A stretch of 64,000 nucleotides of DNA from Pseudoxanthomonas suwonensis (GTDB taxonomy: Bacteria; Pseudomonadota; Gammaproteobacteria; Xanthomonadales; Xanthomonadaceae): the NCBI RefSeq assembly GCF_010093235.1, contig NZ_PDWP01000014.1:36335-100334 (forward strand), in the 5' to 3' direction. A program made the position numbers and the translations under genes. Every line of letters begins with the position of its first letter. Positions within the stretch are counted from its first letter, which is position 1. Of this stretch, positions 35,974 through 53,659 are shown piece by piece. Below the pieces are notes generated by a model. It did no database searches. It was not told where the DNA came from and worked only from the letters and a program-made list of their open reading frames with translations.

Positions 35974-37299
35974 ATGAATACGTTCGCGCAACGCCGCCGG
36001 CTGCAGGACCTGTTCAACCTCCGCCACGGCGAGACAGGCCCGGTGCTGCTGGCGGCCCTGTTCTTCTTCTGCATCCTCACCGCGCTGATGCTGCTGCGCC
36101 CGGCGCGCGACGCCCTGGGCATGGAACGCGGCATCGAGAGCATCCGCTGGCTGTTCGTCGGCACTGCGCTGGCGACCCTGCTGGTCAACCCGCTGTTCGG
36201 CTGGCTCGCCGGCCGGGTGCGGCGCCTGGGCCTGGTCGCGACCACCTACGGCTTCTTCGTGGCCGGACTCGTCGGTTTCTGGGCGCTGCTGGTCCTGGCA
36301 CCCGGCGCGGTGGGCGAACGCAGTGGCCAGGTGTTCTATGTCTGGTTCAGCGTGTCCAACCTGTTCATCACCATGGTGTTCTGGGCACTGATGGCCGACT
36401 GCTTCAGCAGCGACCAGGCACGCCGCCTGTTCGCGTTGATCTCCGTCGGCGGCACGCTCGGCGCCATCTGCGGTCCGTGGCTGACCTCGCGCCTGGCCGA
36501 GCCGCTGGGCACGCCCGCTTTGCTGCTGGTGGCCGGCGGCTTCCTGCTGGTGGCGGTGGCGCTGGCCTGGATGCTGATGCGCATGGCCGCCGAACGCTTC
36601 GGCTCGCAGGTGGCGTCGATGCGCGAACAGGCCAATGCGCCGCCGCTGGGCGGCACGCCCTGGGCCGGGCTGGTGGCCGTGTTCCGCTCGCGCTACCTGA
36701 CCGGCATCGCCGGCTACATCCTGCTGATGACGGTGATGGCGACCTTCGTGTACTTCACCCGCCTGCAGATGGTCGCCGAGGTGGCCGGCGACACCGATGC
36801 GCGCGCCGCGCTGATGGGCAGCATCGACATGTGGACCCAGGTCGCGGTGCTGGTGCTGCAGTTGGCCCTGACCGGCAAGATCGTGCAGCGCTTCGGGCTG
36901 GGAGTGGCGCTGGCCATCCTGCCGGTGGCCACCGCGATCGGCTTCATCGGCCTGGCGATCTACGGATCCTTCCTGGTCCTGGTGCTGCTGGAGGCGACCA
37001 ATCGCGCCGTGCAGCGCGGCATCACCCGTCCGGCGCGCGAAGCCCTGTTCACCCTGGTCGGCCGCGAGGACCGCTACAAGGCCAAGGCCTTCATCGACAC
37101 CTTCATCTACCGCGCCGGCGACGTGACCGGGGCCCAGGTCGAAGGCGTGCTCGGCCAGCTGGGCCTGGCCCTGGGCGGACTGGCCGCGGTGGTCGCGCCG
37201 CTGGCCGTGGCCTGGGCAGGCCTGGGCCTATGGCTGGGCCGCGCGCATCGCGATGCCAGGCCACAGGAAGCGGCCGCCGTGCCCGGCCGGGCCACGTAG
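35974..37299 (+). CDS. MFS-type transporter, Npt/TlcC-like, 441 aa
   Basis: Polytopic protein with about 12 hydrophobic spans (for example VLLAALFFFCILTALMLLRP, ATLLVNPLFGWLAGRV, LGVALAILPVATAIGFIGLA). LLRPARDALG near the N-terminus and ITRPAREALFTLVGREDRYK in the second half resemble the ATP/ADP-carrier-like branch of the major facilitator superfamily, which in free-living bacteria has unassigned substrates. The stop codon TAG lies inside the first copy of the CCACGTAG tandem repeat, so the coding end was touched by the repeat expansion. Confidence 0.82.
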   Translation: MNTFAQRRRLQDLFNLRHGETGPVLLAALFFFCILTALMLLRPARDALGMERGIESIRWLFVGTALATLLVNPLFGWLAGRVRRLGLVATTYGFFVAGLVGFWALLVLAPGAVGERSGQVFYVWFSVSNLFITMVFWALMADCFSSDQARRLFALISVGGTLGAICGPWLTSRLAEPLGTPALLLVAGGFLLVAVALAWMLMRMAAERFGSQVASMREQANAPPLGGTPWAGLVAVFRSRYLTGIAGYILLMTVMATFVYFTRLQMVAEVAGDTDARAALMGSIDMWTQVAVLVLQLALTGKIVQRFGLGVALAILPVATAIGFIGLAIYGSFLVLVLLEATNRAVQRGITRPAREALFTLVGREDRYKAKAFIDTFIYRAGDVTGAQVEGVLGQLGLALGGLAAVVAPLAVAWAGLGLWLGRAHRDARPQEAAAVPGRAT

Positions 37300-37347
37300 C
37301 CACGTAGCCACGTAGCCACGTAGCCACGTAGCCACGTAGCCGCGTAG
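37292..37347. repeat. Seven tandem copies of CCACGTAG
   Basis: An 8-bp unit repeated seven times (the last as CCGCGTAG) running directly into a REP that begins GTAGCCCGG. The unit carries the GTAG head of the REP. The first copy includes the stop codon of the transporter gene. Confidence 0.9.
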
Positions 37348-37454
37348 CCCGGATAAGGCCGGAGGCCGCATCCGGGACCTCCGCCACGTCCGCTAATCCG
37401 CCATCCACAACACACCCGGGCGTCCTGTCCCCGGGTGCGCTTCGCTTACCCGGG

Positions 37455-37540
37455 CTACTGCCACTGCAGGCCGGAGGCGGTGGTGGTCAAGGCCATGGTG
37501 TGTCCCGATGTGCGTGGCGATCCACGGGGCCGCACGGCGA
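37455..37540 (-). pseudogene. FKBP 5'-end remnant, copy 1
   Basis: On the minus strand the codons [13 protein letters not shown] then stop (37496 to 37455), with the upstream flank (TGGCGATCCACGGGG reading on plus), closely match the first 12 codons and leader of the FKBP gene at 28394 ([13 protein letters not shown]). It is a 14-codon fragment embedded in the REP array. Confidence 0.75.
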
Positions 37541-37778
37541 CCGCAGCGAGCTTCGCGTAGCCCGGATAAGGCCGAAGGCCGCATCGCGCCCCCGCGCGCC
37601 TGAAGTGCGACGAGGCCAGGGCCGTCGCCACGGCCCCGCGATCTCAAAGCGCGAGCTTCGCGTAGCCCGGATAAGGCCGAAGGCCGCATCCGGGACCCCC
37701 GCCACGTCCGCCATCCGCCATCCGCCATCCACAACGCACCCGGGCGTCCCGGCCCCGGGTGCGCTTCGCTTACCCGGG

Positions 37779-37864
37779 CTACTGCCACTGCAGGCCGGAG
37801 GCGGTGGTGGTCAAGGCCATGGTGTGTCCCGATGTGCGTGGCGATCCACGGGGCCGCACGGCGA
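37779..37864 (-). pseudogene. FKBP 5'-end remnant, copy 2
   Basis: Same fragment as at 37455-37540, repeated 324 bp to the right with the same flanks. This shows a tandem duplication of a ~324-bp block containing the remnant and two REP units. Confidence 0.75.
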
Positions 37865-38417
37865 CCGCAGCGAGCTTCGCGTAGCCCGGATAAGGCCGAA
37901 GGCCGCATCGCGCCCCCGCGCGCCCGAAGTGCGACGAGGCCAGGGCCGTCGCCACGGCCCCGCGACCTCGAAGCGCGAGCTTCGCGTAGCCCGGATAAGG
38001 CCGAAGGCCGCATCGCGCCCCCGCGCGCCTGAAGTGCGACGAGGCCAGGGCCGTCGCCACGGCCCCGCGACCTCGAAGCGCGAGCTTCGCGTAGCCCGGA
38101 TAAGGCCGAAGGCCGCATCGCGCCCCCGCGCGCTTGAAGCGTGGCGAGGTCCGGGCCGTCGCCACGGCCCCGCGACCTCAAAGCGCGAGCTTCGCGTAGC
38201 CCGGATAAGGCTGAAGGCCGCATCGCGCCCCCGCGCGCTTGAAGCGTGGCGAGGTCCGGGCCGTCGCCACGGCCCCGCCATCTCGAAGTGCGAGCTTCGC
38301 GTAGCCCGGATAAGGCTGAAGGCCGCATCCGGGACCCCCGCCACGTCCGCCATCCGCCATCCGCCATCCACAACGCACCCGGGCGTCCCGGCCCCGGGTG
38401 CGCTTCGCTTACCCGGG

Positions 38418-38486
38418 CTACGGTGTTGAAGGCGTGGCGTCGCCGTAACGCGGCTGCAACCGTACACCACGGATGAAATCCGCCAT
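38418..38486 (-). pseudogene. Duplicated 3' end of the adjacent hydrolase gene, copy 1
   Basis: Encodes the last 22 residues of the hydrolase (MADFIRGVRLQPRYGDATPS then TP and stop, with small differences), as at 39203-39271. It lies between a REP-b unit and the next forward REP. Confidence 0.75.
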
Positions 38487-38607
38487 CCGCTTCGCGTAGC
38501 CCGGATAAGGCCGAAGGCCGCATCCGGGGCCGCCGCCACGCATGACGGCCCGCCAACGCCCAACGCACCCGGGCGTCCCGGTCCCGGGTGCGCTTCGCTT
38601 ACCCGGG

Positions 38608-38676
38608 CTACGGTGTTGAAGGCGTGGCGTCGCCGTAACGCGGCTGCAGCCGCACACCACGGATCAAATCCGCCAT
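38608..38676 (-). pseudogene. Duplicated 3' end of the adjacent hydrolase gene, copy 2
   Basis: Same 69-bp gene end, 190 bp to the right of copy 1, in the same context (REP-b on its left, forward REP on its right). Confidence 0.75.
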
Positions 38677-39012
38677 CCGCTTCGCGTAGCCCGGATAAGG
38701 CCGAAGGCCGCATCGCGCCCCCGCGCGCCCGAAGTGCGACGAGGCCAGGGCCGTCGCCACGGCCCCGCGACGTCGAAGTGCGAGCTTCGCGTAGCCCGGA
38801 TAAGGCCGAAGGCCGCATCGCGCCCCCGCGCGCCTGAAGTGCGACGAGGCCAGGGCCGTCGCCACGGCCCCGCGACGTCGAAGTGCGAGCTTCGCGTAGC
38901 CCGGATAAGGCCGAAGGCCGCATCCGGGACCCCCGCCACGTCCGCCATCCGCCATCCGCCATCCACAACGCACCCGGGCGTCCCGGCCCCGGGTGCGCTT
39001 CGCTTACCCGGG

Positions 39013-39081
39013 CTACGGTGTTGAAGGCGTGGCGTCGCCGTAACGCGGCTGCAACCGTACACCACGGATCAAATCCGCCAT
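39013..39081 (-). pseudogene. Duplicated 3' end of the adjacent hydrolase gene, copy 3
   Basis: Same 69-bp gene end, 190 bp to the left of the native one at 39203-39271. The native copy continues into the full gene; the three extra copies stop at the ATG of MADFIRG. Confidence 0.75.
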
Positions 39082-39202
39082 CCGCTTCGCGTAGCCCGGA
39101 TAAGGCCGGAGGCCGCATCCGGGGCCTCCGCCACGCATGACGGCACGCCAACACCCGGTTCACCCAGGCATCCCGGCCCCGGGTGCGCTTCGCTTACCCG
39201 GG

Positions 39203-40518
39203 CTACGGTGTTGAAGGCGTGGCGTCGCCGTAACGCGGCTGCAACCGCACACCACGGATGAAATCCGCCATCAGGCGCAGGTAGCCATCGGGTTGGCGGG
39301 TCGAGAGCCGTTCGCCGTCGGGGGCGGTCTCGAACTCGTACATGCCGTGCTCGGCGCGGGGAAACACCGCGGTGACGATGGGCCGGCCCGCACGCTGCAG
39401 CGCGGCCAGCCGCCGCAGCGTCTCGCCCGGGGGCGCGTCGCGGTCTTCGCCGCCGAACAGCCACAGCTGCGGCACGTCCAGGGTCTCCAGCACCGGCATC
39501 GGGTCGTAGTGCGCTGGCACGCCGCGCACCAGTCCCGGTGCCTCGCGGCGGATGGTCGCCTCGTCCCGTGCGAGGAGGTAGCCGGTGAAGTTGCCACGCA
39601 CTGCCGGATACCACGGCGCGTCGCCATGCCGGGCCTTGGCCGCTTCCAGCTGCGCATAGCCTTCGCTGAATCCGCTGTCGATCAGCGCGGCAGTGGCATC
39701 GGCGATCTCCATCGCCCCGGCCAGCGCGTCGGCGCCGAAGCCGGCGCGCGCGATGTCGGCGGCGATCGCCTCGCGGTCCTCCTCCAGCGGCGAGACCGCC
39801 AGTCCGAAGCTGACGACCACGAAATCCACCGGTGCGATCCGCGCCGCCAGCGGCGCCACCCAGCCGCCCTGGCTCCCGGCCTGGTAGCCGATACGCCCGG
39901 CGCGCGCCCCGGCCAGCCGCCGCGCCTCGCGCACGGCGTGGATCGCATCGATCGCCAGGGTCAGGTAGTCCTGCGTATAGCGGCCGCCGGACGCACCAGT
40001 GCCGCGCTTGTCGTAGGCGAACACGCCAATGCCCGCCGCGGCGAACTCGCGCTGCAGCGAGTACCGCCCAAGCGCGGCATCGTGTTCGGCGCCATGCACC
40101 AGCACCACCACCGGCACGGGATCCTGGCCAGGCGGCATCGTCAGGCGCCCTGCCAGTTCGACTCCGCTGCCACGGAATCGCGTATCGGTCTGCACCAGGG
40201 CGATGCGCCCGCCGGCCACGCCGTCGAAGCGGATGCGTTCGCAGCCATCGAAGGCCACGCGGTGTCCGTCCGGGCGCCCGGTCCATCCCAGCGTGCTGGA
40301 CCAGCCGCCCCTCCCATCCGGCGCCAGCGCGCCACTGCGGCCGTCGGGCAGGCGCCAGCGCAAGGCGTCCTCGCCGGCCGGGCCGATATCAAGCACGCGC
40401 CCGTCTTCCAGGCGCCAGCTGCCGACCTCGCATCGCGGCTGCGATGCCTGCGCCGCCGTCGCGCACACATCACCGCCAGTGCGACGAGCCCGCCGGTCCA
40501 GTCCATGCGTCGCGCCAT
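39203..40518 (-). pseudogene. Secreted alpha/beta hydrolase (S9/DLH-like), apparently frameshifted in the signal peptide
   Basis: The catalytic part is complete: VVVLVHGAEHDAALGRYSLQ, YDKRGTGASGGRYTQDYL, the nucleophile elbow GYQAGSQGGWVAPL, the acid in LFGGEDRDAPPGE and the His in FPRAEHGMYEFE. It acts on an unknown ester or peptide. The signal peptide (MARRMDWTGGLVALAVMCA) starts at the ATG at 40518 with a GGAG site but is in another frame. The frames should join near 40451-40470, giving ...VMCA-TAAQASQPRC. The gene's last 22 codons have been copied three times into the REP array downstream. Confidence 0.75.
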
Positions 40519-40652
40519 GGCACGCTCCAGTTCCGAAGGATGGGACACAGGCTGGCATGCCGCGCATGCGCATGCCCAGCACTACGCGACGAAGCGCGCC
40601 CTGTGGCGACGGAAACCCCGCTGCGGCGAACGGAAGACGGCGCAGGTCAGGC

Positions 40653-40680
40653 AAAAAAAGGGAGGCGCGCTGCGCCTCCC
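40653..40680 (-). terminator. Intrinsic terminator facing left, with no obvious gene upstream
   Basis: On the minus strand, GGGAGGCGC and GCGCCTCCC form a 9-bp stem with loop AGC, followed by seven Ts (A-run 40653-40659 on plus). The only gene to its right, arr, runs the other way. It may end an unrecognised small RNA starting near 40700-40900, or insulate the hydrolase gene. Confidence 0.7.
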
Positions 40681-40776
40681 GTACTGACGTTGTACGCGCC
40701 CCCGGGGCTTGCGGCAACGCCGCCGCCGTGGTGCAGGATCGCCCGCCTGCCGCATGGCAGGACAGTGGAGGCAACG

Positions 40777-43418: not shown

Positions 43419-44732
43419 ATGGGCATGTTCTCGTGGACCGGAAGGTCCCCGGCCGTCCTGCGCGACGGTGGCGTCATCGCACCGGACGAGCGCCTGCCCT
43501 GGGGACAGACCGGGCTGATGGGCGTGCAGCACGTCATCGCCATGTTCGGCTCGACCGTGCTGGCGCCGATCCTGATGGGCTTCGACCCGAACCTGGCGGT
43601 GCTGATGAGCGGCATCGGCACCCTGGTCTTCTTCCTCATCACCGGCGGCAAGGTGCCCAGCTACCTCGGCTCCTCGTTCGCCTTCATCGGCGTGGTCAAC
43701 GTCGCCACCGGCTACGTCGCCAGCCAGGGCGCCAACCCCAACATCGGCCTGGCCCTCGGCGGGATCATCGCCTGCGGGCTGGTCTACACCCTGGTCGGCG
43801 TGCTGGTGCACGTAGCCGGCACCGGCTGGATCGAACGATTGATGCCGCCGGTGGTGACCGGCGCGGTGGTGGCAGTGATCGGCCTCAACCTGGCTTCGAT
43901 CCCGATCAGGAACATGGCCGCCGGCAACTTCGACGCGTGGATGCAGGCGGTGACCTTCCTGTGCGTGGCGCTGGTGGCGGTGTTCACCCGCGGCATGGTC
44001 CAGCGCCTGCTGATCCTGGTCGGCCTGGTGCTGGCCAGCCTGGTCTACGCGACGCTGACCAACGGCCTGGGCCTGGGCAAGCCGGTGGACATGTCCGCGG
44101 TGATGGCCGCGCCCTGGTTCGGGCTGCCCTCGCTGCACGCGCCGGTGTTCGATACCCGTGCGGTCACGCTCATCGTGCCGGTCGTGATCATCCTGGTGGC
44201 CGAGAACCTGGGCCACATCAAGGCGGTGACCGCGATGACCGGGCGCAACCTCGACCGCTACATGGGTCGCGCCTTCATCGGCGACGGCGTGGCGACCATG
44301 ATCTCCGGCGCGGCCGGCGGCACGGGCGTGACCACCTATGCCGAGAACATCGGGGTGATGGCCGCCACCCGCATCTACTCCACCGCGGTGTTCGTGTGCG
44401 CGGCGGTGATCGCCATCCTGCTCGGCTTCTCGCCCAAGTTCGGCGCGCTGATCCAGGCCATCCCGCTGCCGGTGATGGGCGGCGTGTCGATCGTCGTGTT
44501 CGGCCTCATCGCCGTGGCCGGCGCGCGCATCTGGGTCGACAACCGCGTCGACTTCTCCGACACGAAGAACCTGATCGTGGCCGCCATCACCCTGATCCTG
44601 GGCACCGGCGAGTTCACCCTGAAGTTCGGCGAGTTCGCCCTCGGCGGCATCGGCACCGCCACCTTCGGTGCGATCCTGCTGCATGCGCTGCTGTCGCGCG
44701 CGCGTGCCGAGCGGCCTCCTCCGCGCGCTTGA
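43419..44732 (+). CDS. uraA: Uracil/xanthine permease, NCS2 family, 437 aa
   Basis: Proton-linked nucleobase transporter of the inner membrane. Family signatures: GVQHVIAMFGSTVLAPILMG near residue 35, VPSYLGSSFAFI, ENLGHIKAVTAMTGRN with the conserved Glu, and SGAAGGTGVTTYAENIGVMA with the second Glu typical of UraA. About 14 spans. The 3' end runs straight into REP array 2. The gene symbol reflects the best family match; a RutG role is possible but no rut genes are present. Confidence 0.9.
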   Translation: MGMFSWTGRSPAVLRDGGVIAPDERLPWGQTGLMGVQHVIAMFGSTVLAPILMGFDPNLAVLMSGIGTLVFFLITGGKVPSYLGSSFAFIGVVNVATGYVASQGANPNIGLALGGIIACGLVYTLVGVLVHVAGTGWIERLMPPVVTGAVVAVIGLNLASIPIRNMAAGNFDAWMQAVTFLCVALVAVFTRGMVQRLLILVGLVLASLVYATLTNGLGLGKPVDMSAVMAAPWFGLPSLHAPVFDTRAVTLIVPVVIILVAENLGHIKAVTAMTGRNLDRYMGRAFIGDGVATMISGAAGGTGVTTYAENIGVMAATRIYSTAVFVCAAVIAILLGFSPKFGALIQAIPLPVMGGVSIVVFGLIAVAGARIWVDNRVDFSDTKNLIVAAITLILGTGEFTLKFGEFALGGIGTATFGAILLHALLSRARAERPPPRA

Positions 44733-45661
44733 AGCGCGACGCCGCCTGGACCCTCGCCACGGCCCCGCGACCTTGAAGCGCGAACTCCACGTAGCCCGGA
44801 TAAGGCCGTAGGCCGCATCGCGCCCCCGCGCGCTTGAAGCGCGGCGAGGCCTGGGCCGTCGCCACGGCCCCGCGACCTTGAAGTGCGAACTCCACGTAGC
44901 CCGGATAAGGCCGAAGGCCGCATCCGGGACCTCCGCCACGCCTGACCGCACCCCAATACCCGGCGCTCGCGGGCGTCCAGGTCCCGGGTGCGCTTCGCTT
45001 ACCCGGGCTACGCCCGTCCCGGGCGTAGCCCCGTAGCCCGGATAAGGCCGAAGGCCGCATCCGGGACCTCCGCCACGCCTGACCACGCTCCAATACCCGG
45101 CGCTCGCGGGCGTCCTGTCCCGGGTGCGCTTCGCTTACCCGGGCTACGCCCGTCCCGGGCGTAGCCCCGTAGCCCGGATAAGGCCGCAGGCCGCATCCGG
45201 GACCTCCGCCACGCCTGACCGCGCGCCAATACCCGGCGCTCGCGGGCGTCCTGGTCCCGGGTGCGCTTCGCTTACCCGGGCTACGCCCGTCCCAGGCGTA
45301 GCCCCGTAGCCCGGATAAGGCCGCAGGCCGCATCCGGGACCTCCGCCACGCCCGACGGCGCGCCAATACCCGGCGCTCGCGCGCGTCCAGCTCCCGGGTG
45401 CGCTTCGCTTACCCGGGCTACGCAGGGTCCGTCCCGGGCGTAGCCCGGATAAGGCCGTAGGCTGCATCGCGCCCCCGCGTGCTTGAAGCGCGGTGAGGCG
45501 TGGGCCGTCGCCACGGCCCTGCAACCTCGAAGCGCGAGCTTCGCGTAGCCCGGATAAGGCCGAAGGCCGCATCCGGGGCCTCCGCCACGCCCGACGGCGC
45601 GCCAATACCCGGCGCTCGTCGGCGTCCTGGTCCCGGGTGCGCTTCGCTTACCCGGGCTACA
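44733..45661. repeat. REP/REPIN array 2 (GTAG type), about 0.93 kb
   Basis: Seven forward GTAGCCCGGATAAGG units and five inverted CTTACCCGGGCTAC units, mostly paired into REPINs and tandemly repeated every ~135 bp between 44897 and 45420 (spacer CCAATACCCGGCGCTCGCG). A short GGGCGTAGCCCC linker joins some units. It begins immediately after uraA and ends 35 bp before the peptidase-like gene. Confidence 0.92.
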
Positions 45662-45695
45662 GTACCGCCCACGCCTGCCCGACGAGGACCCGCCC

Positions 45696-46796
45696 ATGCG
45701 GTCGATCCGGTTGTTCGCTGCTGCGTTTTCCATGCTCGCGCTCTTCCCGGCGACGGCCGCCGAACCCGCGACCTCCAGTCGCGGGGAATCCGTCGGCCTC
45801 ATCCGCGAGCTGCGGCGCATCGTCGCGCCCGGGGGCGTCGAGCGCTACGAGCACGTCCGCATCGGCGGCATCGACCAGTTCGTCAGCATCCGCGGCCAGG
45901 ACCGCGCCAATCCGGTGCTGCTGATCGTGCATGGCGGGCCGGGATTTCCGACCTCGGGCATCGCCTGGTGGGCCACGCGCGGCCTGGAGGAGTACTTCAC
46001 CGTGGTCCACTGGGACCAGCGCGGTGCCGGCAAGACCTTCCTGGCCAACGACCCGGCCACGGTCGCCCCGACCATGCAGCCGGAGCGCTTCATCGACGAC
46101 ACCGGCGAACTGGTGGACTGGCTGCGGCGCGAATTCCGCCAGGACAAGGTGTTCCTGCTCGGCACCTCATGGGGCAGCTACATCGGCCTGGAATACGCGC
46201 TGCGCCATCCGGAGCGGCTGCATGCCTATATCGGCATGGGCCAAGCCGTGGACAGCCCAGAGAGCGAGCGCCGTGGCTACGCGGAGGCGCTGGAGCGGGC
46301 CCGCCGCGCCGGCAACCACCAGGCCGTCGCCGAACTGGAATCCATCGCGCCGTATGCGCGCGAGGGCGAACCCATCCCGCTGGAGAAGATCATCGTGGAG
46401 CGCAGGTGGTCCGACCACTTCGGCGGGGTGATGGCCTACCGCCCCGGCCAGGTGGACGGCATCGCCGTGCGCCTGTCGCCGGAGTACAGCGACGACGAGG
46501 CCGCGCGCGCCTACGAGGGCAATGGCTGGTCGCAGGAGTTCCTGCTCAGCGACGTGCTGGGCGTGGACCTCGGCGAACGGACCCGCCTGGGCTGCCCGCT
46601 GATCGTGCTGGCCGGGCGCCACGACCGCACCGTCAACTCGCAGGTCGCGCACGAATGGTTCGAGCGGGTCGAGGCGCCGTACAAGCACTTCGAATGGTTC
46701 GAACACTCGGCCCACGAGATCCTGGCCGAGGAACCCGGCAAGCTGCTGCTCACCCTGGTGCAGCGGGCGAGGCCACTGGCGGAGGGCGCTCCATAA
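45696..46796 (+). CDS. Secreted proline iminopeptidase-like alpha/beta hydrolase, 366 aa
   Basis: Signal peptide at residues 1-22 (LFAAAFSMLALFPATAAEP). S33-type motifs: LLIVHGGPGFPTSGIAWWAT (HGGPG), VHWDQRGAGKT, the nucleophile elbow LGTSWGSYIGLEYAL, the acid in VLAGRHDRTVNS and the His in FEHSAHEILAEEP. It is predicted to release N-terminal proline or act as an esterase in the periplasm. It sits between two REP arrays. Confidence 0.9.
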   Translation: MRSIRLFAAAFSMLALFPATAAEPATSSRGESVGLIRELRRIVAPGGVERYEHVRIGGIDQFVSIRGQDRANPVLLIVHGGPGFPTSGIAWWATRGLEEYFTVVHWDQRGAGKTFLANDPATVAPTMQPERFIDDTGELVDWLRREFRQDKVFLLGTSWGSYIGLEYALRHPERLHAYIGMGQAVDSPESERRGYAEALERARRAGNHQAVAELESIAPYAREGEPIPLEKIIVERRWSDHFGGVMAYRPGQVDGIAVRLSPEYSDDEAARAYEGNGWSQEFLLSDVLGVDLGERTRLGCPLIVLAGRHDRTVNSQVAHEWFERVEAPYKHFEWFEHSAHEILAEEPGKLLLTLVQRARPLAEGAP

Positions 46797-46824
46797 CCTG
46801 GCCTTGCCCACATACGCTTCGGCC

Positions 46825-47815
46825 CATACCGCGTAGCCCGGACAAGGCCGAAGGCCGCATCGCGCCCCTGCGCGACCGAAGTGCGACGACGCCTGGGCCG
46901 TCGCCACGGCCCCGCCACCTCAAAGCGCAATCCCCGCGTAACCCGGACAAGGCCGAAGGCCGCATCGCGCCCCTGCGTGACCGAAGTGCGACGACGCCTG
47001 GCCGTCGCCACGCCCTCGCCACCTCAAAGCGCGATTCCCCGCGTAGCCCGGATAAGGCCGGAGGCCGCATCCGGGAGCCCCACCACGCCCATCACCTTCG
47101 TCCTTCCGTGGCACACATGCGCCCCGACCCCGGGTGCGCTTCGCTTACCCGGGCTACGGCACATGCGGAACGTAGCCCGGACAAGGCCGAAGGCCGCATC
47201 GCGCCCCTGCGTGACCGAAGCGCGACGACGTCTGGGCCGTCGCCACGCCCTCGCCGCCTCAAAGCGCGATTCCCCGCGTAGCCCGGATAAGGCCGGAGGC
47301 CGCATCCGGGAGCCCCACCACGCCCATCACCTTCGTCCTTCCGTGGCACACGTGCGCCCCGACCCCGGGTGCGCTTCGCTTACCCGGGCTACGGCACATG
47401 CGGAACGTAGCCCGGACAAGGCCTAAGGCCGCATCGCGCCCCTGCGTGACCGAAGCGCGACGACGCCTGGGCCGTCGCCACGCCCTCGCCACCTCAAAGC
47501 ACGATTCCCCGTGTAGCCCGGATAAGGCCGAAGGCCGCATCCGGGAGCCCCACCACGCCCATCACCTTCGTCCTTCCGTGACACACGTGCGCCCCGACGC
47601 CGGGTGCGCTTCGCTTACCCCGGGCTACGGGACTTCGGCCCATACCGCGTAGCCCGGACAAGGCCGAAGGCCGCATCGCGCCCCTGCGTGACCGAAGTGC
47701 GACGACGCCTGGGCCGTCGCTACGGCCCCGCCACCTCAAAGCGCGATTCGATTCCCCGCGTAGCCCGGATAAGGCCGAAGCCCGCATCCGGGGCCGACGC
47801 CACATGTCCTCCCGC
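46825..47815. repeat. REP/REPIN array 3, left flank of the RAYT gene
   Basis: About nine forward units, many with the variant GTAGCCCGGACAAGG, alternating with inverted TTACCCGGGCTAC units in a ~235-bp higher-order period (46935, 47173, 47407). Each period also has the half-REP spacer with GGGCCGT-CGCC-ACG and the sequence CATCACCTTCGTCCTTCCG. It ends about 15 bp before the RAYT stop codon. Confidence 0.92.
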
Positions 47816-47827
47816 CCCCCCACGCCT

Positions 47828-48328
47828 TCACTCCCCCGTGCGCAGCGAAGGCAGCTCCACGCCCTCGGTGCCCCAATCCATCGCAACAAGACCGGCACGC
47901 ACATACCGATGGAAGGTCGAGTGCGGCCAATCCACCACACGCGCCACCACGCCGTGCTTCACCGGATTGACGTGCACATACGCCACGTGCGCAGCCAGGT
48001 CACGCTCGTTGCGGATGGTGTGCTCCCAGAACCGCGACTGCCACGGCGATTGCCCGTCGTGCGCCACGCGTCGGGTGAATCCCTTCTTGATCTCGCGCCA
48101 GAGTCCCGCGTAATCGCAGCCGCCCTCGGCCATGGTGATGACCGCATGCAGGTGCTCGGGGAGCACGACCGCTGCCACCACCTGGTGCGGGTACCTTTCA
48201 TGCGCCCGTCGCCATGCGGTCCTGAGTTCGCCTACATGGCGGACAAGCAGATCGCTGTTGCGGTCACGCAGCGTGACCGTGAAGAAGTACGTGGCACCGG
48301 GCACCCGATTGCGGCGATAGCGCACCAT
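47828..48328 (-). CDS. REP-associated tyrosine transposase (RAYT, TnpA-REP family), 166 aa
   Basis: Domesticated relative of IS200/IS605 Y1 transposases that nicks and mobilises REP palindromes. The HUH motif is His59-Leu60-His61 in VVLPEHLHAVITM, and the nucleophile is Tyr117 in AYVHVNPVKHGVV. N-terminal GATYFFTVTLRDR and WREIKKGFTRR are family blocks. It is full length with no frameshift. REP arrays of one family flank it directly on both sides, as expected for its own substrates. No start-proximal ribosome site is obvious. GTAG-headed REPs with RAYTs are known from Stenotrophomonas and relatives. Confidence 0.95.
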   Translation of the reverse strand: MVRYRRNRVPGATYFFTVTLRDRNSDLLVRHVGELRTAWRRAHERYPHQVVAAVVLPEHLHAVITMAEGGCDYAGLWREIKKGFTRRVAHDGQSPWQSRFWEHTIRNERDLAAHVAYVHVNPVKHGVVARVVDWPHSTFHRYVRAGLVAMDWGTEGVELPSLRTGE

Positions 48329-48429
48329 GCCACGAGTGTTCCGGCGGTATCGCCGCCGTGGAAGCGGTGGATGCCACTCATGCGTGTCAGGCGATCCTGA
48401 CCCCTCTCATGCATTCCGGTCGCGTCGGG

Positions 48430-49060
48430 ACCCGGGTGCGCTTCGCTTACCCGGGCTACAACCGGTAGCCCGGAAGGCCGCATCGCGCCCCTGCGTGACC
48501 GAAGCACGACGACGTCTGGGCCGTTGCCACGCCCTCGCCACCTCAAAGCACGATTCCCCGTGTAGCCCGGATAAGGCCGAAGGCCGTCTCCGGGAGCCCC
48601 ACCACGCCCATCACCTTCGTCCTTCCGTGGCAACATGCGCCCCGACCCCGGGTGCGCTTCGCTTACCCGGGCTACAACCCGTAGCCCGGAAGGCCGCATC
48701 GCGCCCCTGCGTGACCGAAGTGCGACGACGCCTGGGCCGTCGCCACGCCCTCGCCACCTCAAAGCACGATTCCCCGTGTAGCCCGGATAAGGCCGGAGGC
48801 CGCATCCGGGAGCCCACCACGCCCATCACCTCCGTCCTTCCGTGGCACACGTGCGCCCCGACGCCGGGTGCGCTTCGCTTACCCGGGCTACGGGACATGC
48901 GGAACGTAGCCCGGATAAGGCCGAAGGCCGCATCGCGCCCTTGCGTGACCGAAGTGCGACGACGCCTGGGCCGTCGCCACGGCCTCGCCATCTCAAAGCG
49001 CGATTCGATTCCCCGCGTAGCCCGGATAAGGCCGGAGGCCGCATCCGGGGCCGACTCCAC
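48430..49060. repeat. REP/REPIN array 4, right flank of the RAYT gene
   Basis: Six forward units and three inverted units continue the pattern of array 3, including two shortened forward REPs (GTAGCCCGGAAGGCC at 48465 and 48680) that have lost the TAAGGCC stretch. A degenerate CCCGGGCTAC remains at 49182-49192, at the end of the ParB-domain gene. Confidence 0.9.
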
Positions 49061-49188
49061 ACCCACGAAGACCTGCGGTCGTACCCGCCTGTGCGGTCCG
49101 ACGGCAACTTCTGCAGCGCGTGGCGACGCGCCGGGCCTCGCCACCGCCCCGACGTTGCAGCGGCGCGGTGCGCGCCGCGTACCCCGGG

Positions 49189-50112
49189 CTACCCCGCCGA
49201 CTGCGCGTGGGCCTCGCGCATCCGCACCAGCTGGTTCTGCAGGGTGGCGACCTTGGAGCGCAGCTCTTCGTTCTCGCGCTCGAGCCGGGTGATGCGGCGC
49301 TGCAGGGCGCGCACGTCGGTGGCCGACTCCGCGCCCTCGCCGGTTTCCCCGCCTTCCGCGTTGGCGCCCTCGCCCGCGGACTCGGTGCGCGGACGCTTCT
49401 TGGCCTCGCGCGCACGCTTTGCGGCCTGCTTCAGCTCAGCCTTGCCGCCCTGCGCGGCGCTGCGCTGTTCTTCCACCGGCAGGCTGGCGACCGCGGCCGC
49501 GGCGCTGATGGAGATCTCGCCGGCCTTCAACGCCTCCACCACTTCCGGCGCGGCCTGGGTGTGGATGCGCTCGATCATCGCCACCTGGTTGGCGCTGAGC
49601 TTGGCCTCGCGCGCCAGTTCGGCGCGGCTGACCGGCACCGGATCCCAGGGCGGCAGGTCGTCGGACTCCGGCTTAGCCTTCAGCGCGGCCGCCGCCTCGG
49701 CGGCTTCGGCCTCGGCTGCTTCGGCGGCGGCAGTGGCGGCCTGGGCGGCGCGCAGGGCCTCCAGGTCGGCCTCGCGCTGGGCCTGCAGGCGGCGGGCGAG
49801 GATCTCGCGCTTGCGCAGGGCCAGCACGCCGCGCTGGTAGTCGGAGACGCTGCGCCGGCCCAGGTGCTGCTCGATCATCCACAGGTGCACGTCCTCCATC
49901 GACTGGAAGCGCGTGTTCTGCACCGTGTTGAAGGGGATGCCGTGCTTCTGGCAGATGCCGTAGCGATTGTGGCCGTCGACCAGGATGTCGCCCCACAGGA
50001 CCAGGGAGTCGCGGCAGCCCTCGGCCAGCAGGCTGCGCTCCAGTGCCTCGTACTCGTCGTTGGTCAGCGGATCGATATAGGCCTTGAGCTCTTCGAGTAC
50101 GACGATGTCCAT
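49189..50112 (-). CDS. ParB N-terminal domain protein, 307 aa
   Basis: The N-terminal ParB/sulfiredoxin-like nuclease fold is clear (IDPLTNDEYEALERSLLAEG, DILVDGHNRYGICQKHGIPF). It is followed by WMIEQHLGRRSVSDYQRGVL, an Ala/Glu-rich helix, and an HTH-like region (SRAELAREAKLSANQVAMIE). The C-terminus is a coiled coil (RALQRRITRLERENEELRSK). Such proteins are labelled plasmid partition-like in many xanthomonad chromosomes. No ParA is next to it, so a role in partition is not supported; regulation or DNA binding is possible. The ATG at 50112 starts the conserved domain. Confidence 0.82.
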   Translation of the reverse strand: MDIVVLEELKAYIDPLTNDEYEALERSLLAEGCRDSLVLWGDILVDGHNRYGICQKHGIPFNTVQNTRFQSMEDVHLWMIEQHLGRRSVSDYQRGVLALRKREILARRLQAQREADLEALRAAQAATAAAEAAEAEAAEAAAALKAKPESDDLPPWDPVPVSRAELAREAKLSANQVAMIERIHTQAAPEVVEALKAGEISISAAAAVASLPVEEQRSAAQGGKAELKQAAKRAREAKKRPRTESAGEGANAEGGETGEGAESATDVRALQRRITRLERENEELRSKVATLQNQLVRMREAHAQSAG

Positions 50113-50221
50113 GCACTGCTTGGGAAAACGGGGGCGCGCATTGTAGTGCCTGGTTCCCGCGTCCAGTAGCGGATTGACGGGCGCGCCGAATGGTGCGCAA
50201 CGGCGCACGCCGCAACGAGAA

Positions 50222-53550: not shown

Positions 53551-53659
53551 GTAGCCCGGATAAGGCCGCAGGCCGCATCCGGGGAGTGGTTGGCGGCGCA
53601 GGGACAGGGCGCGGTTGCTCGCCTGCGCCCCCCGGATACGCTTCGCTTATCCGGGCTAC
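53551..53659. repeat. Isolated complete REPIN, 109 bp
   Basis: A forward REP (GTAGCCCGGATAAGGCC ... ATCCGGG) and an inverted REP (CCGGATACGCTTCGCTTATC CGGGCTAC) form a single head-to-head unit with GTAG/CTAC termini. Both arms use the CCGGAT stem, so this copy may be closest to a mobile form. Confidence 0.85.

Follow-up and report, generated by a model that had tools for sequence, protein, structure and literature searches.

What relation do tandem arrays of repetitive extragenic palindromic (REP) sequences bear to the transposase gene that lies among them? The question is raised by a window of 64,000 nucleotides of Pseudoxanthomonas suwonensis (G000:C5:36335-100334; assembly of 3,424,528 bases in 66 contigs), the whole stretch of DNA analyzed here, in which the gene for a REP-associated tyrosine transposase (RAYT) occupies positions 47828..48328 on the minus strand. 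We consider it fairly probable that this is a group 2 RAYT set among arrays of the REPs likely to be cognate to it, and that the enzyme, predicted to nick folded single-stranded REPs, likely helped inverted pairs of two REP types (A-B', the prime marking the inverted unit) to grow in place into tandem arrays.

A RAYT related to E. coli TnpA_REP

The open reading frame (ORF) encodes 166 amino acids, with an HUH motif (HLH) at residues 59-61 and an aligned catalytic tyrosine, Tyr117, and matches the NCBIfam model NF047646 for REP-associated tyrosine transposases (E = 2.3e-46; 157.3 bits, cut-off 80). The preliminary description had called the gene complete and named the same residues, and the match bears it out. 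No Pfam family was found for the protein at 1e-3. The sole solved relative that we found is 4er8, TnpA_REP of E. coli (E = 1.7e-43), with 48% identity over 154 aligned columns. The E. coli HUH motif, K82, Q95, R104, and Tyr115 are all conserved (the aligned residues here being K82, Q97, R106, and Tyr117); K82, Q95, and R104 make contacts to the bulge and the GTAG of the REP (PMC8266576). D100, which the same paper names, is by our own count E in both the E. coli and the present sequence. A further group 2 trait is a C-terminal tail with G160 and E161 (PMC8266576): Our protein ends in GE, and GE is found near the end of many relatives, though these ends are unaligned and the 4er8 alignment reaches residue 155 only. 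By analogy, we predict that the RAYT nicks folded single-stranded REPs.

No second RAYT of this type was found in the genome, which answers the suggestion that another RAYT might match the REPs better. Up to E = 1, the only further matches are two proteins of contig C6 with 24%-27% identity, whose genes belong to the Y1_Tnp family (C6:84918-85241 and C6:91331-91657; L002 and L001). Third-position GC content is 0.79 in the RAYT gene and 0.90-0.95 in four other genes of the window; the case for a recent horizontal gain from base composition is weak, since the RAYTs of relatives are often low in third-position GC too.

Two bulged REP types and a half-REP element

Immediately around the RAYT stand REPs of two types that are abundant genome-wide: a REP-A unit bounding its 3' side (47760..47792, plus strand, 35 bp from the ORF) and a REP-B unit bounding its 5' side (48431..48459, minus strand, 102 bp from the ORF); the two are inverted relative to each other, and their GTAG ends face outward. 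REP-A is GTAGCCCGGATAAGGCCGNAGGCCGCATCCGGG, laid out as GTAG CCCGGAT-AA-GGCC, a loop, and GGCC-GC-ATCCGGG; REP-B is GTAGCCCGGGTAAGCGAAGCGCACCCGGG, laid out as GTAG CCCGGGT-AA-GC, a loop, and GC-GC-ACCCGGG. The main difference between them is the inner stem, which is far shorter in REP-B. REP-A folds into an outer stem, an unpaired AA/GC bulge, and an inner stem. REP-B can be drawn with the AA/GC bulge, but its minimum-energy fold instead has a 3-bp inner stem and a one-sided AA bulge.

These folds, together with the protein match, decide the class of the system. According to PMC8266576, group 2 REPs are long, with an irregular zone or bulge (AA/GC in E. coli), and the single-stranded REP is cut at CT whereas the inverted REP is not; group 3 REPs are short perfect palindromes adjoining GTAG. 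Both REP kinds here are bulged, and neither is a short perfect palindrome. Since the protein is also closest to E. coli TnpA_REP, the system is, judged by sequence, an E. coli-type (group 2) REPtron, and the kinship with Stenotrophomonas (group 3) systems proposed in the preliminary description is not supported. We also rejected a reading of the repeats as an RNA family, since 44500-49300 gave no match in Rfam at the gathering score.

REP-A and REP-B pair with each other far more than with themselves. Among neighbors within 400 bp we find 176 inverted A/B pairs (99 A-B' with GTAG outside and 77 with GTAG inside), compared with two inverted B/B pairs and no A/A pair; 19 further neighbors are A/A or B/B on the same strand. 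The head-to-head pairing of two REP subtypes claimed earlier is thus upheld. Within an array the spacers are near-identical, and they differ between most arrays; the exceptions are the arrays on contig C15 (28068 and 31048) and, in part, two on contig C5, which lie 3 to 10 kb apart. Spacers alike within and unlike between arrays are read as tandem growth at each site, sometimes copied nearby. With alternating REP orientation, tandem repetition, and constant spacers, the arrays have the properties of bacterial interspersed mosaic elements (BIMEs) or arrays of REP doublets (REPINs).

The half-REP unit with a second hairpin that had been proposed is also present. This C unit consists of the 5' half of REP-A fused to a further palindromic stretch; the RNA fold of the 105-bp unit has -52.4 kcal/mol, and an example lies at 38091..38195 (plus strand). 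We found 16 strict copies, eight of them in the cluster around the RAYT and seven in a second array nearby (15 of 16 together), as well as two shortened ones, at 48465 and 48681. For the portion of C outside the REP, BLAST gave at least 24 matches in the genome with E of 0.01 or lower (of 53 candidates, 40 were scored), 18 on contig C5 and six elsewhere, and diverged dispersed copies (contigs C6, C11, and C22) again begin with a REP-like half.

Arrays at the locus and across the genome

Exact GTAGCCCGG heads number 57 in the window, 37 forward and 20 inverted, close to the roughly 36 and 18 first estimated. Positions 44733-49200 hold 21 forward and 12 inverted heads, and 37344-39206 hold 13 and six; the remaining few are lone REPs or chance. 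Around the RAYT the units form three arrays. Array 1 (44791..45660; C A B' A B' A B' A B' C A B') lies between a RutG-like gene and a hydrolase gene, with an A-B' period of 136-137 bp. Array 2 (46833..47792; C C A B' C A B' C A B' C A) lies between the hydrolase gene and the 3' end of the RAYT, with a C-A-B' period of ~235 bp, the B' at 47600-47628 being degenerate. Array 3 (48431..49192; B' c A B' c A B' C A, with c a shortened C, followed by a degenerate B' at 49160-49192) lies upstream of the RAYT. GTAG REPs thus stand on both sides of the gene, as first described, and the measured periods of ~105 bp (C to C), 136-137 bp (A to A), and ~235 bp (C-A-B') agree with the ~105, ~135, and ~235 bp first given. 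The placement of the arrays at 44733..49190 holds for this cluster and misses a second array at 37344..39206, ~8.6 kb from the RAYT, with 19 strict units (six A, six B, and seven C) between 35974-37299 (plus strand) and 39203-40774 (minus strand). A lone A-B' REPIN lies downstream (53551..53659).

A 157-bp direct repeat (plus strand; left copy 47648..47804, right copy 48905..49061; 95% identity) brackets the RAYT segment with part of its arrays. Over a longer stretch compared, the C-A units of this bracketing repeat are 90% alike, other pairs 88%. The repeat may have arisen by recombination between units, or through the duplication or insertion of a segment. A run of short CACGTAGC-type repeats (37290-37343) directly adjoins the second array on its left, and runs of the heptamer CGGGATT occur left of the arrays at C5:5498, C20:30011, and C6:55959. 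Long open frames pass through the arrays at 45500-47281 (593 amino acids) and 37811-39163 (450 amino acids) and could be annotated as false genes.

Allowing up to three mismatches, the genome has 150 matches to the REP-A/C pattern and 136 to the REP-B pattern, with none for the reversed control of either. From 33 stretches and the window we located 143 of the 150 and 132 of the 136 (275 units), and joined units within 1.2 kb into 52 clusters with sizes of 30, 19, 19, 18, 16, 14, 13, 12, 12, 9, and smaller; 16 have at least six units. The RAYT cluster is the largest (30 strict units) and the second array is one of the two 19-unit clusters; the two lie within 11.7 kb and contain 49 of the 275 located units. 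The dense clustering with a peak at the RAYT is confirmed, and the even spread through the genome that would have spoken against the association was not found. Still, 14 of the 16 clusters with at least six units are others than the RAYT cluster and its neighbor (for example, on contigs C46 with 19 units, C15 with 18, and C22 with 16), which indicates that the RAYT locus is not the sole place of growth.

Comparison with sister species at the same sites

In a sample of 17 genomes of the genus, the RAYT occurs only in the present genome; the best match in any other has an E value of 3.5e-10 and identities are 24%-31%. REP-B (up to two mismatches) is found in five of the 17: 133 units here, 52 in each of G113 and G087, 41 in G155, and eight in G188. 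We defined a REP-B group as three or more units with gaps up to 450 bp. Here, 103 of 132 units are in groups (largest 9), compared with nine of 52 in G087 (largest 3) and none of 41 in G155, 52 in G113, or eight in G188. The assembly of G087 consists of one contig, so its difference from the present genome can scarcely be put down to assembly.

At the locus itself, the order of the RutG-like gene, the hydrolase gene, and the gene at 49189-50208 is kept in G087, G188, and G155 without the RAYT, and each stretch has one to three REPs. The gap from the RutG-like gene to the hydrolase gene is 963 bp here and ~0.1-0.2 kb in these three. G188 and G155 have a single REP directly after the hydrolase gene, at the position of the first C unit of array 2. 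The interval between the hydrolase gene and the homolog of 49189-50208 contains other genes in the sisters (L149:9900-12970, L150:9690-11760, L151:11320-13447), and G087 differs from G188 and G155; with its gene content differing in this way, the interval looks like a variable spot.

Genome-wide, 30 of the 52 clusters could be matched to a collinear interval in stretches of the sisters, and for 29 this interval is in G087. Units in the sisters were counted at mismatch limits equal to or looser than those for the present genome. At these 29 sites the present genome has more units at 19, equal numbers at four, and fewer at six. All 11 matched sites that have at least six units here hold zero to four in G087; five more large clusters lack a counterpart. 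Where both genomes have REPs (24 sites), 14 sites are larger here, four equal, and six smaller (P = 0.010, Wilcoxon). At C19:38166 and C6:28755, G087 has one and two A-B' pairs, compared with arrays of four and six pairs here, with nearly the same spacer.

RAYTs and REPs across the family

Among 198 sampled genomes of the family, 52 have RAYT matches at 1e-10 and 45 have REP-A. REP-A occurs in all 17 genomes with a close RAYT (E of 1e-59 or better), compared with 28 of the 181 others (P = 7e-13, Fisher's test, kinship ignored). In the other close-RAYT genomes, REPs of these types stand on both sides of the RAYT match within ~100 bp in 10 of 10 stretches (10 of 16 genomes sampled). The linkage of RAYT and REPs holds across the sampled family. 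Numbers and grouping of REP-B vary: G148 has 380 units, and in G123, 38 of 95 units are in groups of three or more, the largest of seven (95 of 159 places; five listed on other contigs are excluded).

Relation to known systems

The nearest parallel is the E. coli TnpA_REP/REPtron (y, z1, z2), whose protein is similar and agrees in its HUH motif and Tyr. The REPs of both systems begin with GTAG and bulge at AA/GC, come in two kinds that differ in the inner loop and are arranged as inverted heterodimers in BIMEs, and form BIMEs next to the gene (PMC8266576, PMC3733652, PMC2817692). The asymmetric two-stem REPIN had struck the preliminary description as unusual, and we considered it as a novelty, but rejected this: The E. 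coli y/z heterodimers are of this kind, and REP heterodimers of Enterobacteriaceae have loops of different length (PMC3733652). Nor are tandem arrays as such unusual: P. fluorescens, Stenotrophomonas, and Xanthomonas have them, and they are known next to RAYTs (PMC3116915, PMC2817692). Unlike in E. coli, the tandem arrays here are longer and more numerous, and the half-REP C element is extra. The REP stem is of CCCGG type, unlike the stem of E. coli REPs.

The largest such REPIN cluster in P. fluorescens SBW25, which has a RAYT of another group, comprises four REPINs and an extra REP (PMC3116915), compared with up to 30 REP units here. The SMAG/REPs and BIMEs of Stenotrophomonas are similar in having GTAG REPs, a RAYT inside a BIME, hybrid BIMEs of two REPs, and locus-specific spacers, but their group 3 REPs are described as short perfect palindromes without a bulge (PMC2817692, PMC3686654). 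The C element resembles the degenerate GTAG-1 units of P. putida and P. fluorescens, in which a partial REP is joined to another hairpin; those number in the hundreds and are terminal repeats of a transposase gene (PMC3733652), whereas C is present in 16 strict copies, and all but one of these lie near the RAYT. Earlier papers describe RAYTs located inside BIMEs, an accumulation of REPs near RAYTs of recent arrival, REPIN clusters in tandem, heterodimers, and REPs that outlasted the loss of their RAYT, and they propose that RAYTs have a role in BIME growth (PMC3733652, PMC2817692, PMC3686654, PMC8266576, PMC3116915). In the open-licence PMC literature, we found no same-site comparison of array lengths between RAYT-bearing and RAYT-less sister species.

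How the arrays may have grown

A RAYT-driven route to BIME arrays has been proposed from their anatomy (PMC2817692), and a second, cluster-forming mechanism has been suggested (PMC3116915). In the E. coli model, the enzyme binds a folded single-stranded REP via GTAG and bulge and cuts at a nearby CT (PMC8266576). If the present enzyme recognizes and cuts its REPs in the same way, an A-B' pair that is repeatedly cut and rejoined on one strand would be duplicated in tandem together with its flanks, and the effect would be strongest near the RAYT gene. We infer on this basis that the RAYT drives array growth. The strongest form of this proposal, in which the RAYT is the engine of REPIN array growth and one lineage with a working RAYT expanded ancestral A-B' pairs that RAYT-less sisters keep as single pairs, is plausible but somewhat less likely to be true than false.

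Several observations weigh against a RAYT-driven origin. The contrast depends on a single lineage, that of the sole RAYT-bearing species in the genus sample of 17, and the arrays could instead have shrunk in the sisters. At C38:5545, one of the six contrary sites, the present genome has one unit and G087 has seven in 2.3 kb. Small groups occur without a RAYT, as the three groups of three REP-B in G087 show. The 28 genomes that have REP-A without a close RAYT comprise 11 with only more distant RAYTs and 17 with no match at 1e-10, with up to 45 REP-A. Inspected by eye for CT cut sites, the repeat junctions could not be read clearly, as the flanks have diverged. Finally, the RAYT-bearing genome G105 has 293 REP-B, and the 50 listed, all on one strand, comprise 46 singles and two pairs with no array. 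A RAYT alone is therefore insufficient, and other conditions matter.

G105 and the small groups of G087 are also what would be expected if the RAYT dispersed the REPs long ago and the tandem arrays then arose by replication slippage or unequal recombination, without the enzyme. Spacers and flanks specific to each locus likewise fit slippage. Such an origin does not explain why groups are few in the four RAYT-less congeners, which have these repeats too, or why the largest of the 52 clusters surrounds the RAYT, and we hold it to be less likely than not, though slippage alone is a serious rival. Alternatively, RAYT and arrays were both present in the common ancestor, and the present genome shows this old state; in the sisters, the gene was lost and the arrays collapsed. 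REPs in five congeners do imply a former RAYT, and at matched sites an A-B' pair with an identical spacer is often retained in G087; array collapse would be required in four species, though, the neighbor genes are present without the RAYT in three sisters, and the RAYT of other genera is not at this locus, none of the 10 close-RAYT stretches having the present neighbor gene order. We regard this history as unlikely. That the REPs adjoin the RAYT by chance and are moved by another enzyme is very improbable: The genome does contain the two other Y1-type genes on contig C6, and REP-A occurs in 17 sampled genomes without any RAYT match at 1e-10, but the C6 proteins are distant from the RAYT, and REP-A is in all 17 close-RAYT genomes as against 11 of the 35 with only more distant RAYTs.

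At matched sites of this genus, the same REP pairs occur in a genome that has the RAYT and in others that lack it, in some cases grown into arrays and in others not, which makes the proposal of RAYT-driven growth testable by comparison and by gene removal. The present case documents an E. coli-type REPtron in the Lysobacteraceae, and if the RAYT is indeed the engine of array growth, the genus would offer a natural experiment, already at hand, on the origin of BIME arrays.

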